A DNA stretch of 35,885 nucleotides from an uncultured Chitinophagales bacterium (GTDB lineage: Bacteria > Bacteroidota > Bacteroidia > Chitinophagales > UBA2359): assembly GCA_937951415.1 (NCBI GenBank), contig CALFBW010000048.1:1-35885 (forward strand). The letters are read 5' to 3'. Every line of letters begins with the position of its first letter. Positions within the stretch are counted from its first letter, which is position 1. A program made the translations under genes and the position numbers. This document shows, piece by piece, positions 1 to 31,083 of this stretch. The notes under the pieces are model-generated. The model did not search any database, was not told where the DNA came from, and saw nothing but the letters and a program-made list of their open reading frames with translations.

Positions 1-513
1 GGGGAAAACTTAGCCGCAGAGGAAACGCAAAAGAACACCTTCGAGGTGGAGCGCGAATATTACAAGCTAGAAATCCAGGAAAGCAGAAAGGGCGTCATCA
101 ACTATAAAAAGGTGCCCATGAAAGCCAATGAATGGAAAAGCGGTGACGACATTTTAGTTAAAGTAAAAGTCTCTGCGGAAAGCGATCAAGATTATGTTTT
201 GGTGGAAGATCCAATTCCTGCGGGCTGCGAATTTATTCGTGATACGGACAGCTACATCATCGAAGGGGAAAACAATTTCCAAGGACGAAAGCAACGCGGT
301 TACTGGAGTTATTGGTATTCTCATCAAGAATACCGCGACAATCGTTTTGCCATGACGGTAACGAAAATGCGCAAAGGAGATTACGAATATTCCTATTTAT
401 TAAAGGCACAAATTCCTGGCGACTACAAAGTATCTCCTGCCGTAGCTCAACTCATGTATTATCCCGAATACAGAGGTTACAGCGAATTTGAATCTGTTAA
501 AATTCAGGAATAA
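1..513 (+). CDS. Alpha-2-macroglobulin family protein, C-terminal fragment (5' end outside window)
   Basis: The frame is open from base 1 and ends with TAA at 511-513, so about 170 C-terminal residues of a much larger protein are present. The text includes the VEDPIPAGCEFI stretch, followed by a beta-rich segment with many Tyr and Trp and a short end (SEFESVKIQE). This is the pattern of the last macroglobulin-like domain of bacterial alpha-2-macroglobulins, where 'DPIPAG' is common. Family members are large periplasmic, often lipid-anchored proteins that trap proteases, frequently with a thioester. The thioester region is not in the window, so its presence cannot be judged. A GTG at 46 is an internal codon and not the start, because the reading frame continues upstream. 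A strong terminator follows 58 bases after the stop. Confidence 0.85.
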   Translation, partial: GENLAAEETQKNTFEVEREYYKLEIQESRKGVINYKKVPMKANEWKSGDDILVKVKVSAESDQDYVLVEDPIPAGCEFIRDTDSYIIEGENNFQGRKQRGYWSYWYSHQEYRDNRFAMTVTKMRKGDYEYSYLLKAQIPGDYKVSPAVAQLMYYPEYRGYSEFESVKIQE

Positions 514-570
514 ATAATAAATTCAAAATTCGTCAGTTTTTATTACTGATAGATGAATGGTCTGATGAGG

Positions 571-608
571 AAAGCCCGCAGTATCGTAGGATATTGCGGG
601 CTTTTTTA
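571..608 (+). terminator. Rho-independent terminator after the alpha-2-macroglobulin gene
   Basis: A 15-bp stem (571-585 with 590-604, one G-U pair) closes a GTAG loop. The right arm runs straight into a T tract (603-607). It lies between the convergent genes ending at 513 (+) and 626 (-). The A tract on the other side is short, so it should work mainly for the plus strand. Confidence 0.85.
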
Positions 609-625
609 TTTATTGACAATAAAAA

Positions 626-2377
626 TTATTCTTCAACTAAGCTCGTTGCTGATCGATAGTCATCGAAAATGATCACCCAATCGCCACTAGGGGTAAAGTA
701 CAATTTATTAATCTCTACTTTTCTGGCAGCTAATTGCTTTACAACCGAAACCAATTTATTGCTGAGCTTTTTAGGGAGACTTGCAGCCATTCTATTCTTT
801 CCGAAAATCAATGCCCATCCACCTGTGCTTGTAAACGAAATACTATTTATTCCCTGTTTGTATACCTTTTGAATCGTTGGCTTTAGTTTCGACAAAGTGC
901 GATCGTTGACATTACAAGTAAAGCCATTACTATTTCTCCCATAAATAGCGATCCAACCTTTGTTCGTGTGGTGCGTAAAAACAACATCCTGTAAAGGCTG
1001 CCCTTGCTTTTCGGTTAAATTATTAGAGGCTGCTAATAACTGATTACTACTCTCTTCGGTCATCGAAGTAGAAATTCCAAAACCGTTGTGATAGGTGATA
1101 AAATATTCCCCATCAGGCGCCAATGCTATATCGGTAATTTCGTGTTTCTTGCCTTTTAAAATCTGAACAGCGTTCAATAAATCAGCAGGCATTTTCTTAT
1201 GATAAACATCATTCTTTCCAAAGAGAATCATCCAGCCTCCTTCATCACTAAAAACCAGGCTTTTGATTTTTCTCCGTCGTTTAGCTAGCTCCTTCAGAGC
1301 TTCCAACAAATCTCGATCTGTTTGGGTTCTTGGAGCCCTGTAAATGTTGTACTTTTTCGTTTTGGTATTTTCCGAGTTCCCGTAAGGATAAGGTTTATTC
1401 CTGCCTATGTAATTCAATGGTTCCAGCTTAACTTCGCCCGATTTATATTTTGCTGGAACCCCTAAATTGTTTCTTCCAGGACCGGCGGTTTCAGCCACGA
1501 CCCAAGATTTTCCTTTTCCTTTCACAACAGCCATTCCTTTTTCCGGCGGGGTATTGATAGCTGTTAATAAATGACCAGGAACCGTGAGGAAAGCTATTTT
1601 ATTAGCAGGAATTAAATAGGTCAATATTCCCGCAAACAAAAAGGACTTGGAATCACAATCGCCAAATTTCAAATATAAAATTTGGGGTGGAGTGACCAAT
1701 CCTCCGTATAAATAATCAGGATCGTTTTGATACGGGATGGCGTATGGAATGTCCTGAATAAATTTCATCGCCATTTCAATGCGCTCACGTTCAGTATCCG
1801 TTCCATAGTTTTCGAGTACAGCTACTATTTGTTGGGCAATTTGCTCACAAAACACTTCGGTGTAATAAGAAACAATCGCTGAAGGATTAGGACGCAGGGC
1901 TTTCTTTTGGATGACAAACATTCCTTCCGCTAAAGCCTGTTCTCGCATTTTGTTCCAAACAGGAATCTCCGACTTTCGCATTCGATAACTGCCTGTAAAG
2001 GCGCGCGGAAAACCAAAACGATGATTCATGTCCTTCATCTGTTTTAGCTTGTAGGACATCGTAAAATGCTGTTTGCGGTTTTTGTGATCCTTAAAGGAAT
2101 AGCTCAAACGATAAATTCCTTGGTCCACTGAGCTTTCTAGTTTAGCATGTGGATTGAATTTATACTCCTTATGCTCTACCGCATCCATTGGTCGGCTGCT
2201 TTTCTTTCTCGTTGGCAGCTTCGGCATGGAAGTGCCCTTTTTTGAAGCCGTCGATCTTCCAGTAGAAGAACGCCCCGTTCTACCCGTCGTTCGAGCTTTG
2301 GGAGTGGTTTTGGTTATTTCCTTAATTAAGGCTTTGCCTGCCTCTTTGAAAATATTGAAAAGCAATCCTTTACTCAT
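626..2377 (-). CDS. Transglutaminase-like protein with C-terminal tandem beta/helix repeats
   Basis: 583 residues from an ATG at 2377. The N-terminal 65 residues are strongly basic and rich in Ser/Thr/Arg/Lys, with no signal peptide, so a cytoplasmic protein is likely. Residues 170-300 look like a transglutaminase/papain-fold core: Cys241 in FGDCDSKS, His269 in VPGHLLTAI and an acidic residue, Glu296, in WVVAETAGPG would form the Cys-His-Asp/Glu triad. Residues 371-583 hold four and a half tandem repeats of 43-48 residues, each starting with a strand (I-x-x-I-x-F) followed by GGWxIxFGKN and a helix. Transglutaminase-like folds include proteases, amidases and cross-linking enzymes, so the reaction is not predictable. 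It is the distal minus-strand gene of this block, 60 bases downstream of the DUF6702 gene. The core assignment rests on motif order and was not searched. Confidence 0.6.
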   Translation of the reverse strand: MSKGLLFNIFKEAGKALIKEITKTTPKARTTGRTGRSSTGRSTASKKGTSMPKLPTRKKSSRPMDAVEHKEYKFNPHAKLESSVDQGIYRLSYSFKDHKNRKQHFTMSYKLKQMKDMNHRFGFPRAFTGSYRMRKSEIPVWNKMREQALAEGMFVIQKKALRPNPSAIVSYYTEVFCEQIAQQIVAVLENYGTDTERERIEMAMKFIQDIPYAIPYQNDPDYLYGGLVTPPQILYLKFGDCDSKSFLFAGILTYLIPANKIAFLTVPGHLLTAINTPPEKGMAVVKGKGKSWVVAETAGPGRNNLGVPAKYKSGEVKLEPLNYIGRNKPYPYGNSENTKTKKYNIYRAPRTQTDRDLLEALKELAKRRRKIKSLVFSDEGGWMILFGKNDVYHKKMPADLLNAVQILKGKKHEITDIALAPDGEYFITYHNGFGISTSMTEESSNQLLAASNNLTEKQGQPLQDVVFTHHTNKGWIAIYGRNSNGFTCNVNDRTLSKLKPTIQKVYKQGINSISFTSTGGWALIFGKNRMAASLPKKLSNKLVSVVKQLAARKVEINKLYFTPSGDWVIIFDDYRSATSLVEE

Positions 2378-2437
2378 GTTGCGTGTGGGTTAATTTGAAA
2401 AAGCGCAATGTTTCTATCTCTCCTCGGTTCTCCTCAC

Positions 2438-2938
2438 TTAGTTCCAAGTGATAACTCCTGAATTTTGATCTCGATGCAAAATCAAGGATTTCCGTTCACC
2501 TTCTCTTCGGGCTTTGATGATGTTCTGTTGATCTTCAAATACATCAGTTAATAAAAAGGATTGAATACTCACTTCAGGGCAAATGGGGATAACAGAACTT
2601 TCGAAGTACATCCAAGTGGCATCTAACTCCACTTCTTTACCAATAAAAACCAAATCAATCTCCGTTTCTGCACAAGTCAAGAGTAAACGCTTTTGCACGT
2701 ACTTTGTCAAATAAGTATCGGCTTGTTCATGCTCCATTTCTTCACCCAGCAAGAGCTTTTCAGTACCTTCTGTCATAAGTGCCTGTTCAAGATCGTCTGT
2801 GAAAATTTTCACCGTAAACTCAAACCGTCCATTTTCCGCATTCTGCTCTACCTCAGTAATGCTCACATGAAAATCATGCGGCGAGAAGGAACTGCAAATG
2901 CATCCCAGCAGGATAAGGGGTAAAAACAGATATTTCAT
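2438..2938 (-). CDS. DUF6702 family exported protein
   Basis: 166 residues starting at ATG 2938. The first 20 residues form a hydrophobic export signal. Cys13 in the LLGC context could be a lipobox, but the -2 residue is unusual, so lipid attachment is uncertain. The mature start HDFHVSITEVEQN and the following FTVKIFTDDLEQAL match the pattern I know from DUF6702 proteins, short Bacteroidetes envelope proteins often found near M1 peptidases. No M1 peptidase is present here. Function is unknown. It lies 45 bases downstream of the S4-protein gene on the same strand and may share its transcript. Confidence 0.7.
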   Translation of the reverse strand: MKYLFLPLILLGCICSSFSPHDFHVSITEVEQNAENGRFEFTVKIFTDDLEQALMTEGTEKLLLGEEMEHEQADTYLTKYVQKRLLLTCAETEIDLVFIGKEVELDATWMYFESSVIPICPEVSIQSFLLTDVFEDQQNIIKARREGERKSLILHRDQNSGVITWN

Positions 2939-2983
2939 TGCTATTTATTACTTGCAAAAAGTTCGCCCATTTATGGCTTTTGA

Positions 2984-3385
2984 TCAATCATCCCAATCTT
3001 CACGCATCTTATCAATGTCGCGGCGATCTCGTTTCGTTGGTCTACCCGTACCTCTGTCGCGATGACCGCTGTTTAAAAAGACAGCGTCTTTCTTCGAAAA
3101 GACCGGTTGAGGCGGTGGCGGCGGAGAATGATCTTTAAAGCATTCGGCCGCCAAAGTAGCTGAAACACGTTTCGCTATGATCTGTTCCACTTCGTAGATA
3201 ATGGTCAAAACACCTTTGCGTACCGTGATCTTATCACCAACACTCACAGAACGAGAAGCCTTTACAGATTTACCATCGATTTTCACTTTTCCAGAGGAGC
3301 AAGCAGTCGTAGCCATTGTTCTTGTCTTAAATACACGAACTGCCCACAACCACTTATCTATGCGAATTTTTTGTAGCTCTCCCAC
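2984..3385 (-). CDS. S4-domain RNA-binding protein, Hsp15 (HslR)-like
   Basis: 133 residues. The N-terminal text IRIDKWLWAVRVFKTRTMA, followed by GKVKIDGKSVKASRSVSVGD, is a complete S4 RNA-binding domain (about residues 7-70), as in Escherichia coli Hsp15. Hsp15 binds free 50S subunits that carry a nascent chain after heat stress. The tail has a poly-Pro stretch and then RGTGRPTKRDRRDIDKM, a basic end common in the Bacteroidetes versions. The start codon is GTG at 3385; no in-frame ATG lies close upstream. It is separated from glyS by a terminator-like hairpin, so it probably has its own promoter. Confidence 0.85.
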   Translation of the reverse strand: MGELQKIRIDKWLWAVRVFKTRTMATTACSSGKVKIDGKSVKASRSVSVGDKITVRKGVLTIIYEVEQIIAKRVSATLAAECFKDHSPPPPPQPVFSKKDAVFLNSGHRDRGTGRPTKRDRRDIDKMREDWDD

Positions 3386-3430
3386 CCTTGTTTCTTATTT
3401 ATTTACTTAATAAATGCTTTTTCTACAAAA

Positions 3431-3469
3431 ACAAAAGCTGATAATCCTAAAATACCAGACTATCAGCTT
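3431..3469 (-). terminator. Terminator-like hairpin downstream of glyS
   Basis: On the minus strand a 9-bp stem (3461-3469 with 3435-3443) closes a 17-base loop and is followed by a T-rich run, TTGTTTTTG. It sits 39 bases past the glyS stop codon. It should separate glyS from the S4-protein gene. Confidence 0.7.
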
Positions 3470-3507
3470 CTGCAGTAGTTACATCGAATGTTTACGATAA
3501 GTGCTTT

Positions 3508-5058
3508 TTATGCTAAAAGGTTCCTTAAATCGAGTTTTTTCGCAATTCTTGGCTCTAATTCGGCGATTGGAACACGAATTTGCTCCATAGAATCTCGATC
3601 TCTCAGAGTAACCGTATCATCTTCGATAGTATCAAAATCGATGGTTACACAGAAAGGAGTTCCAATGGCATCTTGTCTACGGTAGCGCTTGCCGATGGCA
3701 TCCTTTTCGTCGTATTGACAATTAAAGGCAAACTTCAAATCATCAAAGATGGCTCGGGCCTTTGTGGTCAGCACTTCCTTGTTTTTCAGCAAAGGCAAAA
3801 TTGCCACTTTCACTGGAGAAAGCGCTGGGTGCATTTTCATCACCGTTCTTGTTGCTGTTCCTCCTTTTGCGTCTGGCACTTCTTCTTCCATCAAGCTGTT
3901 GGCAATAACTGCTAAGCACATGCGATCTACACCAATTGAAGTTTCTACCACATAAGGAACATAACTTTCGTTGATTTCTGGATCAAAGTACTGCAACTTC
4001 TTGCCCGATAGCTCCTGGTGACTCTTCAAATCGAAATCGGTTCTAGAGTGAATTCCTTCTAATTCTTTAAACCCAAACGGAAATTTGAACTCTATATCAG
4101 CAGCTGCATTGGCATAATGCGCTAAGTTGTCGTGATCGTGGAAGCGCACACTGGTTTCTGGGAACAAGGCTTGGTGCCATTTCATACGGGCTGCTTTCCA
4201 GTGTTCGTACCAATCCATTTCGGTGCCGGGGCGCACAAAGAACTGCATCTCCATTTGCTCAAATTCACGCATACGGAAAATAAACTGACGTGCTACAATC
4301 TCGTTTCTGAAGGCTTTACCAATCTGAGCGATTCCAAATGGAATCTTCTGACGGGTAGTATTTTGAACATTTAGAAAGTTCACGAAGATTCCTTGGGCCG
4401 TTTCTGGGCGAAGGTAAATCGTATCAGCCCCTTCGGCTACTGCTCCCATTTTGGTGGAGAACATCAAATTGAATTGACGAACGTCAGTCCATTCTTTTGA
4501 ACCACTCACAGGACAGGCTATTTCCAACTCTTCGATGATGGTTTTCAAACCCTCCATGTCATTGTCGGCCATCGACTGCGTGAATCGCTGCATGATCGCT
4601 GAACGCTTTTCCATGTAACCCACCACTCGTGGATTGGTCATCATGAACTGTTCGCGATCAAAGGCATCACCAAAGCGCTTGGCTGCTTTATCGATTTCTT
4701 TATCGATCTTCTTATCAATCTTATTGGCCAAGTAATCTTCAATCAACACATCCGCACGGTAGCGCTTCTTAGAATCCTTATTGTCGATCATAGGATCGTT
4801 GAAAGCATCAACGTGACCAGAGGCTTTCCAAATCAATGGATGCATGAAAATCGCAGAATCAATACCCACAATATTCTCATGCATCTTTACCATGGCTTGC
4901 CACCACAAAGACTTGACGTTGTTCTTCAATTCCGATCCGTAGGGACCATAATCGTAGACAGCACTTAAGCCATCGTACACTTCACTTGATTGAAAAATAT
5001 ATCCGTACTCCTTACAATGGGAGATGATCTTTTTAAAATCTGCCTCTTGAATTTTCAT
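3508..5058 (-). CDS. glyS: Glycyl-tRNA synthetase, single-chain eukaryote/archaeal-type
   Basis: 516 residues, the usual length for the homodimeric class II GlyRS of Bacteroidetes. It charges tRNA-Gly with glycine in the cytoplasm. The N-terminal FQSSEVYDGLSAVYDYGPYG is the family's motif 1 region. Motif 2 is seen as FRNEIVARQFIFRMREFEQM, motif 3 as SIGVDRMCLAV, and the C-terminal anticodon-binding domain begins near MHPALSPVKVAILPL. I chose the ATG at 5058 because it fits family starts (MKIQEADFKKIISHC). A TTG three codons upstream (5067) also keeps the frame open. A perfect -7 box ends 6 bases before this ATG, so a leaderless transcript is possible. Confidence 0.96.
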   Translation of the reverse strand: MKIQEADFKKIISHCKEYGYIFQSSEVYDGLSAVYDYGPYGSELKNNVKSLWWQAMVKMHENIVGIDSAIFMHPLIWKASGHVDAFNDPMIDNKDSKKRYRADVLIEDYLANKIDKKIDKEIDKAAKRFGDAFDREQFMMTNPRVVGYMEKRSAIMQRFTQSMADNDMEGLKTIIEELEIACPVSGSKEWTDVRQFNLMFSTKMGAVAEGADTIYLRPETAQGIFVNFLNVQNTTRQKIPFGIAQIGKAFRNEIVARQFIFRMREFEQMEMQFFVRPGTEMDWYEHWKAARMKWHQALFPETSVRFHDHDNLAHYANAAADIEFKFPFGFKELEGIHSRTDFDLKSHQELSGKKLQYFDPEINESYVPYVVETSIGVDRMCLAVIANSLMEEEVPDAKGGTATRTVMKMHPALSPVKVAILPLLKNKEVLTTKARAIFDDLKFAFNCQYDEKDAIGKRYRRQDAIGTPFCVTIDFDTIEDDTVTLRDRDSMEQIRVPIAELEPRIAKKLDLRNLLA

Positions 5059-27717: not shown

Positions 27718-30036
27718 TCAAGGAATAAATACTTGTACGGCATCCATCTGATTTGCCGAAAAAATTTGCAAAATATACTGCCCTGTCGGAACATCGCTCG
27801 TAGACCAAGAATAACGATTCGCCCCTTCGAAGCTTTCCTTGAAACCTTTTTGCAAAGCTTTACCATTTAAGTCAATCAAGCGTAATTCAATATCCGTTTC
27901 TTCTTGAGAATTATAAATAAAATCTATCTCATTATTAATAGGATTATGAATTACTGCAATGGCGTTTTGCTCTTGTTCAAAATCGGCACAATCATAGGGA
28001 TATACTTCCAAATCAAAATACAGCATCAAATGCTTTACCGCTCTGCAAGGCCTTCCTACTGCAAATTCTCGCATTAAGTCCACTTCTTTTTCCCACTTCG
28101 AATAGCTGGATGGATAATTCCATCGATCGATGTGATTTCGCATTTCATTGGAATACAAAGATTCGAAAAGGTCAATCTTCGCTAGCATATTTTCTAGACT
28201 GAAAGTATTTTCCAAGTGAAAAGAAAAGCGATCAATGTATTTATCTCTAAATTGTTGATTCTCTAAAAGCTTTCGAAATAAAATAGTGGACCAAGGAGGA
28301 TTAGGCCAGGAAGGTCCATCTACCTCTGTCGCACTTGCCAAGGTATTGTGATCAATGGCTCTTTCTGAGTCTCGCAAAAAACCGAATCCCATATCTAAAT
28401 CATAAATCAACCAATTCCATTTGGTTTGCGCATCTTTCGAGCAGAAATATTTGATATTATTTCCAGGCCAATCAAAGTTTCCAATAAATATTTGAGCAAT
28501 TTGATATTCAATGAACCGATCTATGTCTACCTCGTCGTTCACTACTTGATAGTTTTCAGGAAGCGATAGATCTGCTAGTTCCAAAAATTCCAAGAATTGA
28601 TTGTACTTAACCGTATCTCCTTTTACTACTTCAAAACCATTTTTTATTAAATCATAAGAACCACTTTCTAACTGGTAATTATTCTCGAAGAAGCTTTCAT
28701 CAAATTGTTCCTTCAGGTTCACGATTCCCCAATACTCTCCATTCAAATAGAGACAGGCTGATCTATTGGCTTGTACATCAACGTCCATGGAAGCAACGAG
28801 TTCTTGCTGAACCACATCTCGAATGTGTGTTTTAATAAAATCATTTCCGGCATTTCGTAAAATGAGGCTCTTAAAGGAGCAGTAGTTTCTATCGGGAAAG
28901 AAGCAGTGCTCTAAGCGTTTATTTCCATAGCCTTTCCTAGCCACAAAACGCATACTTTTCTGCGGCATGGTCCTACCTGCAAATCCAAACATTTCCAAGC
29001 CTCCGTATTCCGAAAAGTAGTTACCCGTATCAAAAAATTCAAAATTCGCTCCTAGCTCTGTTTCGCGATTATAGTTGCCTGGAGGATGATATCCGGTCCA
29101 TTCGGTATTTTCGAAATCTTTTCCCGGAACATACATTCCCTGCTCATAATCAAACAGCTCTTCTTCATTCGTAATTAGTGAAATGATGGGTAAGTCGTGT
29201 TTGTCCTCCCATCCCTCTCCTACAAAGTAAGTCGCCGATTCCACTTCCGAATTCGCTTTCCCGTCCAGAAAAGAGCGCCAACGGAGAATGTGGCATTTAT
29301 CCACTTCACGCTTCGGTGCCTTGTACACGAACGACTCTAAATGATCGGGACCTTCTAAAGGGGTGGTGGGTATCATCGACAAACGATTTTCCTTTCCTTC
29401 GAGTGATTCCAATAGTATTGCCTGCTCCCAGACTGGATGTTCCAATGTTGGTTCTGAGCCATCGGTTGAATAATGGACTTGTCCTAAAACGTCATTTATT
29501 ACCAAATCAACAGAAACTGGCTCGGCATAAAATCCTGCTGGTCTTAGCACATCAAAAAGGTGAATCGGTCTACTAGTGCTATTACTTGTTCCAGGAGTCG
29601 CTTCGTACAGAACAGCTGTTTCTTGCTCCCCATCCACAAGCCGACCAAAACTGCGGTGGACTTCCAAGGGCTGTGCAACTAATTGATCAGCGATTTGACC
29701 ATCGGGTGCGAATAAGACCACAGGCTCTCCCTCCGAAGAAAGAGAAAAAGAAGTATGTAAATTAGGGAATGCTCGATTCTTTCCCGAAGCAAAAATGACC
29801 AAATATTCGTTGGCTTCTAGAATTGTCCCTATGGGAAGATTCCATTTTCCTTGCAAGGTATCGTCCGATAAAACGTAGCCACTAAGGTCAAGTTGCTCTG
29901 CAGATGTATTGAAAAGTTCGATCCAATCGGGCGTATCTCCATCCTCATCTTCCAAGTCGCGCTGATTCTTCGATTGGTATTCGTTGATTATGACCTGCGC
30001 AGCAACAAACTGCCCCGTTAAGGAGAGGAAGGCCAA
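27718..30036 (-). CDS. Lamin-tail/CotH-kinase-like T9SS protein
   Basis: 772 residues if TTG 30036 is the start. Residues 14-115 are a lamin-tail (LTD) domain (VIINEYQSKNQRDLEDEDGD, then DWIELFNTS). VHYSTDGSEPT near 187-197 is a short CHB_HEX_C-type repeat. About 275-640 is a CotH kinase-like domain, with FIGNFDWPGNNIKYF and WLIYDLDMGFGF. CotH proteins phosphorylate spore-coat proteins in Bacillus; in Bacteroidetes they are secreted with unknown targets. The end (AVIHNPINNEIDFIY to VQVFIP) is a T9SS-type sorting domain. The signal peptide is incomplete at the TTG: 12 more in-frame codons back to a CTG at 30072 give a complete one (NPLHTYVCWALLAFLSL, cleavage near AAQ). No in-frame ATG is present, so the start is unresolved. 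Confidence 0.88.
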   Translation of the reverse strand: MAFLSLTGQFVAAQVIINEYQSKNQRDLEDEDGDTPDWIELFNTSAEQLDLSGYVLSDDTLQGKWNLPIGTILEANEYLVIFASGKNRAFPNLHTSFSLSSEGEPVVLFAPDGQIADQLVAQPLEVHRSFGRLVDGEQETAVLYEATPGTSNSTSRPIHLFDVLRPAGFYAEPVSVDLVINDVLGQVHYSTDGSEPTLEHPVWEQAILLESLEGKENRLSMIPTTPLEGPDHLESFVYKAPKREVDKCHILRWRSFLDGKANSEVESATYFVGEGWEDKHDLPIISLITNEEELFDYEQGMYVPGKDFENTEWTGYHPPGNYNRETELGANFEFFDTGNYFSEYGGLEMFGFAGRTMPQKSMRFVARKGYGNKRLEHCFFPDRNYCSFKSLILRNAGNDFIKTHIRDVVQQELVASMDVDVQANRSACLYLNGEYWGIVNLKEQFDESFFENNYQLESGSYDLIKNGFEVVKGDTVKYNQFLEFLELADLSLPENYQVVNDEVDIDRFIEYQIAQIFIGNFDWPGNNIKYFCSKDAQTKWNWLIYDLDMGFGFLRDSERAIDHNTLASATEVDGPSWPNPPWSTILFRKLLENQQFRDKYIDRFSFHLENTFSLENMLAKIDLFESLYSNEMRNHIDRWNYPSSYSKWEKEVDLMREFAVGRPCRAVKHLMLYFDLEVYPYDCADFEQEQNAIAVIHNPINNEIDFIYNSQEETDIELRLIDLNGKALQKGFKESFEGANRYSWSTSDVPTGQYILQIFSANQMDAVQVFIP

Positions 30037-30132: not shown

Positions 30133-31083
30133 TTAACGCTTCGCTTCTCGTTCTACACGGGAAAAGAGAGACATTTTCGGATCTAATAAGAACTTAATCA
30201 ACAGTTTCGTCCATGATTCATGGTAAACAAGCGTGTTGTAGTACTCTGGTGCCATTGCACGAATTTTCGGCAGACGGTTCCAGGGAACAGCTGGAAAATC
30301 GTGGTGCTCATTGTGGTAACCCACATTAAAAGCTAGTGTATTCAAAGGTCCGTAGTACGAGTAAGTCTCTTGAGGAGGAGCGGTCAAATAGTGCTCTTGA
30401 ATCCATCGTGCTCCCAGCGGATGTAAGCCCACAGAAAACCACAACGACAAGAGCAAGTATAGGATCGCCTTCCATCCGAAGAAATAGAAAAGAATAGCAT
30501 CGCTCGCCAAGAGTGCCCCCATGTTCACCATCGTCCAGCCGCTTACAAACTTGATAGACTCCAAACGGGGAGGGCGCAAAATTTGAAATACTGGATACAT
30601 CAGTAACCATAAAGCTTTTCCTATGGTGGTATTACCGATCAATCGCGCTTCCCAGTGACTGGCCAAATCCGCATCTCTATCATAGTGCCCTTGAAAGGCG
30701 TGGTGTTTCAAATGGTAGGTTCGGAAAGATACAGACGAAGGCAAAACATTCGGCAAATCAGCAATGATGCCCGAAATGAAATTTAGCTCACGTTTCTTAA
30801 AGACTAAGTGATGCGCACACTCGTGGATGAGGGTAAACAAAGAGTGATTGGCAAAAGCGCCAATGCAATAAGCTGCAAGTACTATCCAGTACCAAGCAAT
30901 ACCGCTCAAACTGATCGCGAGCGTCATTTGCAATCCTACAATCAAAACGATAAAGGCGAAAGTCCAGGGGTTCTTCCCATTCAAGTCCCGAATCTCGGGA
31001 TGTGCCTTTAAAATTTCCGAAGTTCTAATCTTGTGTGGCTCTGGTGTTGTTGACAACAGATAACCTTCTTGCTTTTCGGCCAT
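30133..31083 (-). CDS. Membrane fatty acid desaturase, sphingolipid delta-4 desaturase (DES1)-like
   Basis: 316 residues from ATG 31083, close to animal DES1 (323). The three His boxes of di-iron membrane desaturases are intact: HECAHH (87-92), HLKHH (124-128) and HNEHH (257-261). The N-terminal segment EPHKIRTSEILKAHPEIRDL matches the lipid-DES extension that precedes the desaturase domain in DES1. The run from GLHPLGARWIQEHYL through ETYSYYGPLN and FNVGYHNEHHDFP corresponds almost word for word to the DES1 C-terminal half as I remember it. DES1 makes ceramide by introducing a 4,5-trans double bond into dihydroceramide. Many Bacteroidetes make dihydrosphingolipids, so the substrate is probably a long-chain base or dihydroceramide, but this is inference. 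No serine palmitoyltransferase gene is in the window. Confidence 0.88.
   Translation of the reverse strand: MAEKQEGYLLSTTPEPHKIRTSEILKAHPEIRDLNGKNPWTFAFIVLIVGLQMTLAISLSGIAWYWIVLAAYCIGAFANHSLFTLIHECAHHLVFKKRELNFISGIIADLPNVLPSSVSFRTYHLKHHAFQGHYDRDADLASHWEARLIGNTTIGKALWLLMYPVFQILRPPRLESIKFVSGWTMVNMGALLASDAILFYFFGWKAILYLLLSLWFSVGLHPLGARWIQEHYLTAPPQETYSYYGPLNTLAFNVGYHNEHHDFPAVPWNRLPKIRAMAPEYYNTLVYHESWTKLLIKFLLDPKMSLFSRVEREAKR

Follow-up and report, generated by a model that had tools for sequence, protein, structure and literature searches.

The window, 35,885 nucleotides long, is contig C48 of a genome that is 86% complete and spread over 490 contigs. One of its genes probably encodes a membrane diiron desaturase that acts at the delta-4 position of a sphingoid base and gives true ceramide. 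In the proposed route, serine palmitoyltransferase (SPT) would carry out the condensation of an acyl thioester with serine, a GNAT-type N-acyltransferase would attach the second chain, and a CerR-like epimerase-type reductase would reduce the 3-keto group to give dihydroceramide. The desaturase, using oxygen and electrons from a donor, would then introduce a 4,5 double bond into the long-chain base of dihydroceramide, yielding true ceramide. For this last reaction we infer the exact substrate, the position and trans geometry of the bond, the electron donor and the headgroup.

The desaturase gene, its product and its relatives

The gene was recognized from the ORF listing, the sequence itself, Pfam and a whole-genome search. 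It occupies 30133..31083 on the minus strand, with an ATG at 31083 and the stop at 30133, and encodes a protein of 316 amino acids. Analysis with hmmscan placed a Lipid_DES segment (PF08557; E value of 1.4e-11; 44 to 47.8 bits against a cut-off of 23) at residues 8 to 40 (30964..31062, minus strand) and an FA_desaturase domain (PF00487; E value of 7e-27; 95.2 bits against a cut-off of 29.7) at residues 64 to 287 (30223..30894, minus strand). The three His boxes, all on the minus strand, are HECAH at residues 87 to 91 (30811..30825), HLKHH at residues 124 to 128 (30700..30714) and HNEHH at residues 257 to 261 (30301..30315), with the spacings H87-x3-H91, H124-xx-HH128 and H257-xx-HH261. The sequence QETYSYYGPLN was found at residues 238 to 248 (the ETYSYYGPLN block, residues 239 to 248, at 30340..30369, minus strand), and NVGYHNEHHDFP spans residues 253 to 264. 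Across 110 bacterial homologues, 43 residues were invariant, including the eight histidines of the His boxes (H87, H91, H124, H127, H128 and the three of HNEHH, a motif present in 110 of 110), N258 and the ET..YYG..N core (E239, T240, Y243, Y244, G245 and N248); at the level of sequence, both family membership and intact metal ligands are evident. A preliminary description of this DNA had placed the ORF at these coordinates, with no strand given, and had claimed a DES1 N-terminal lipid-DES segment, three His boxes and the ETYSYYGPLN...NVGYHNEHHDFP block, and all of these were borne out, the Pfam profile check that it proposed returning Lipid_DES at 44 bits.

Both domains were present in all 30 of the aligned homologues, and Lipid_DES was absent from all 14 control genomes, indicating that the match is more than chance. 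Ordinary acyl-lipid desaturases without that domain, which as best matches would have refuted the preliminary description by its own terms, were not the best matches found. The whole-genome profile search found the window protein to be the only Lipid_DES protein of its genome; the second FA_desaturase match there is a different protein, on contig C358. When the window protein was searched against NCBIfam, no model came near its cut-off and none named the protein, the acyl-desaturase models reaching 25 bits against a cut-off of 500, so that generic annotation probably conceals the family. A PDB sequence search returned no related solved structure, only one weak match to a rhodopsin (E value of 0.02). 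The AlphaFold2 model of the protein was confident, with a mean pLDDT of 90 and a pTM of 0.88, and its top fold matches in the PDB were two chains from chloroplast FtsHi motor complexes, followed by FtAlkB and human stearoyl-CoA desaturase, the last with an E value of only 0.02. The predicted fold thus resembles membrane diiron enzymes, as expected of a member of the membrane diiron superfamily.

Within the window, no lipid gene adjoins the desaturase, which weighs against the delta-4 reading. Directly downstream, on the same strand and after a 96-bp gap, is a gene for a CotH-kinase protein with a lamin-tail domain (27718-30036).

The desaturase is not rare. Lipid_DES was detected in 39 of the 395 sampled Bacteroidia genomes. 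In species genomes, matching stretches that encode relatives numbered at least 580, some of them from Ignavibacteria and Kiritimatiellota. The best 80 of these stretches came mainly from Saprospiraceae, Chitinophagaceae, Sphingobacteriaceae, Cytophagales and Ignavibacteria, with single records from KSB1, Kiritimatiellae and Dadabacteria among the same 80. It is a sizeable family across Bacteroidota and Ignavibacteriota. Two of the homologues, L086 and L063, come from records labelled Dadabacteria and KSB1, where gene transfer or misbinning is possible. A viral origin was considered and rejected: 46 pattern matches in viral contigs included no relatives, and the viral fold matches were distant fatty-acid desaturases.

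Predicted ceramide pathway genes in the same genome and beside related desaturases

The preliminary description had also proposed a genome check for SPT, and an SPT gene was present. Ten PF00155 matches were found in the genome of the window, two of which are alpha-oxoamine synthases of interest (L034 and L035). The first, the SPT candidate, lies on a 4.7-kb contig (C456; L194) that brings three genes together: a GNAT N-acyltransferase resembling a ceramide synthase (192-1325, minus strand), SPT (1331-2533, minus strand) and a CerR-like epimerase-type reductase (2615-3613, plus strand). The GNAT and reductase genes are related to those flanking the desaturase in a Saprospiraceae relative (L120, below), and from domain type and position we infer that they may act as CerS and CerR, respectively. 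The nearest match of L034 was Sphingobacterium SPT (3a2b, 356 bits with a start-trimmed copy), and L034 has Ala at the site of the Lys that distinguishes SulA, the cysteate acyltransferase of sulfonolipid synthesis. It fell in the SPT clade with a support of 99/96, in a subclade that also contains sequences from Saprospiraceae, Ignavibacteria and Melioribacter, in a tree that contained two wrong antisense ORF rows (Chijap and Chirupis), which were ignored in its reading; a smaller tree built without these rows again placed it with SPT (support of 94/82). Against the NCBIfam SPT model it scored 490 bits, below the cut-off of 640, a shortfall that counts against the sphingolipid reading of the window gene. 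The strongly supported subclade of Ignavibacteria and Saprospiraceae relatives scores about 480 to 500 bits against this cut-off, so that the model would miss it.

The second synthase, L035 on contig C284, matched cysteate acyltransferase best (567 bits against 28eh, 543 bits against 7u7h), and it carries a Lys that corresponds to Lys281, the distinguishing residue of SulA (PMC9304779). By gene presence, with enzyme activities predicted, this one genome therefore appears to hold both a dihydroceramide route and the first step of sulfonolipid synthesis. Since the SPT contig is short and the metagenome-assembled genome 86% complete, misbinning of that contig is possible.

Most DES genes (as we refer to the DES1-like desaturase genes) stand alone among clade-specific neighbours. 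Five exceptions were found (L120, L092, L122, L117 and L107). In L120, an FA-hydroxylase gene, SPT, GNAT, DES and the reductase form one overlapping run on the same strand, in which DES overlaps both the GNAT and reductase genes and the SPT scores 647 bits, over the NCBIfam cut-off of 640. In L092 and L122, SPT, GNAT and reductase genes lie about 7 to 10 kb upstream of DES and are followed by further genes, a BT1523-type PIP synthase, DUF4833, an FA-hydroxylase, DES and PAP2; DES begins 20 to 46 bp after the FA-hydroxylase gene and lies no more than 6 bp from the PAP2 gene that follows. The PIP synthase of L092 scored 393 bits against a cut-off of 350, and the sole NCBIfam match of its PAP2 was phosphoinositol dihydroceramide synthase, at 299 bits, below the cut-off of 480. 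Two clusters are looser: L117 has SPT, GNAT, reductase, PIP synthase and PAP2 genes on the opposite strand about 3 to 10 kb from DES, the first three of them at about 7 to 10 kb; in L107, a two-piece FA-hydroxylase is accompanied by GNAT, reductase and DES genes, and no SPT was found in that stretch. The five clustered DES proteins occupy four places in the DES tree, indicating that the link to ceramide genes is not one local accident. Gene context thus gives independent support to the reading of the window gene as a DES1-like sphingolipid desaturase.

Small FA_hydroxylase (PF04116) genes stand beside DES or SPT in L092 (9352-9960), L122 (9257-9862) and L120 (6960-7646), and the PF04116 gene of the ceramide clusters possibly encodes an acyl 2-hydroxylase of ceramide. 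In L107 (7115-7704) and in a Kiritimatiellae genome (G402), the match to the FA-hydroxylase lying upstream of DES is split into two pieces, and an in-frame TAG is found in the GNAT gene, reflecting either pseudogenes or sequencing errors.

Co-occurrence pointed in the same direction. Among the 395 Bacteroidia genomes, of which 40 had SPT and 39 had DES, both were found in 16, compared with 3.9 expected (Fisher p of 4.5e-8, ancestry ignored). With SPT counted only over its cut-off, 14 genomes had both rather than the 3.7 expected (p of 1e-6, ancestry ignored), and 12 genera shared the two rather than about 3 (p of 1e-6, ancestry again ignored). In the order to which the window belongs, SPT was present in 4 of 5 genomes with DES and in 0 of 9 without it. 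Type strains with DES and an SPT over the cut-off include Mucilaginibacter galii, Chitinophaga japonensis, Chitinophaga rupis, Ferruginibacter paludis and Arachidicoccus ginsenosidivorans. In a Melioribacter roseus metagenome-assembled genome with DES, the one alpha-oxoamine synthase match at the threshold used was SPT.

Alternative substrates and reactions

PMC9304779 describes sulfonolipids as sulfur analogues of ceramide phosphates. It is conceivable, though unlikely, that the main substrate is not dihydroceramide but a sulfonolipid (capnoid) base, which SulA makes from cysteate, with 4,5-unsaturated sulfonolipids as the product. The SulA candidate with the diagnostic Lys in the same genome as the window gene is consistent with this, as are eleven genomes that have DES and SulA without SPT (G290, G370, G387, G351, G158, G300, G135, G248, G316, G317 and G169; G290 and G370 are single contigs). 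The DES proteins of these eleven mix with those from SPT genomes throughout a single tree, suggesting that the enzyme may also act on a sulfonolipid base. However, SulA-type cysteate acyltransferase homologues (E <= 1e-110) were found in 346 of the 395 Bacteroidia genomes, so that by sequence a potential for sulfonolipids is near universal in this sample and the presence of SulA nearly uninformative; fixing the substrate by co-occurrence with SulA was rejected for this reason. Moreover, DES clusters were found with SPT and ceramide genes and none with SulA, no SulA match being found near DES in the loci searched, and one genome (G363) combines DES with SPT and, at the thresholds used, has no SulA.

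In the eleven SPT-free genomes, no sphingolipid marker was found near DES within the stretches examined, and a GNAT relative was present in all eleven, scoring lower than most of those linked to SPT. Either the enzyme also takes sulfonolipid bases in these species or it serves something else there. In a further genome with DES (G195, 99% complete), neither SulA nor SPT was found. A tentative extension, possible but doubtful, is that one DES family desaturates the long-chain base whatever stands at carbon 1, giving true ceramides in SPT genomes and 4,5-unsaturated sulfonolipids in SulA-only genomes; it would then be the enzyme hitherto missing for unsaturated sulfonolipids in bacteria. Flavocristamide A may be one product of this kind. 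Accordingly, the preliminary reading of a DES1-like sphingolipid desaturase stood with respect to its domains, SPT and relatives in ceramide clusters, and was amended in two respects: the gene is not rare, and the term "sphingolipid" may need widening to the sulfonolipid base, given the many DES bearers with SulA and without SPT.

Delta-4 desaturation and C4-hydroxylation cannot be separated by sequence alone, the fold being common to desaturases and hydroxylases so that a profile match does not distinguish them. The eukaryotic DES family includes bifunctional desaturase/C4-hydroxylases, and the window protein might instead convert dihydroceramide to phytoceramide in the manner of the second activity of animal DES2. 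We consider this improbable, because all 110 homologues have HNEHH, which we take to be the DES1 rather than the DES2 form of the third His box, and because the clusters already hold a separate FA-hydroxylase gene, though of a different type. The general FA_desaturase domain would also fit an ordinary desaturase or hydroxylase acting on the acyl chain of a phospholipid or on the amide-linked chain of ceramide, and PMC11324152 provides a precedent in Caulobacter CC_0202, a member of the DesA family reported to hydroxylate the amide-linked chain of sphingolipids. The occurrence of Lipid_DES in every aligned member and the 25-bit scores of the acyl-desaturase models make such an activity very unlikely, and delta-4 desaturation of a sphingoid base is the reading that we prefer.

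Implications and comparison with known systems

The introduction of PMC12724326 depicts the sphingolipids of bacteria as restricted to simple forms, partly for lack of desaturases. The DES1-like gene and its relatives inside ceramide-building clusters suggest that some bacteria probably make true ceramides, besides the saturated form usually reported for them. If so, the ability to make ceramide carrying the double bond known from eukaryotes would extend to many environmental Bacteroidota and Ignavibacteriota, and ceramide in mixed samples would not by itself be a eukaryotic marker. DES is likewise a testable candidate for unsaturated sulfonolipids. A literature search of incomplete coverage, and hence weak evidence of novelty, returned no report of a bacterial DES1-like enzyme.

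Like the inositol phosphoceramide cluster of Bacteroides thetaiotaomicron (BT_1522, BT_1523; PMC9246714), L092 has a BT_1523-type PIP synthase over its cut-off and a PAP2 with a phosphoinositol dihydroceramide synthase match below its cut-off, and L122 has close homologues of both. Unlike in that cluster, an FA-hydroxylase and DES are inserted between the two genes, and a search of the text of PMC9246714 found no mention of a desaturase. As outlined in parts of PMC11324152, the Caulobacter pathway of Spt, CerS (CC_1154) and CerR (CC_1164) has SPT, N-acyltransferase and dehydrogenase roles matched here by domain type, but those parts describe no DES1-like step.

The window protein differs from eukaryotic DES1/DEGS1 in its bacterial host, and its activity is putative. 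Bacterial DES often occurs alongside a sulfonolipid pathway, and bacterial ceramide is apparently made by GNAT and epimerase-type enzymes rather than by a eukaryotic ceramide synthase. With eukaryotic DES1/DEGS1 the window protein shares Lipid_DES, FA_desaturase and three His boxes, the third of them HNEHH, and the ETYSYYGPLN block and NVGYHNEHHDFP are presumably common to it and the animal DES1 sequence.
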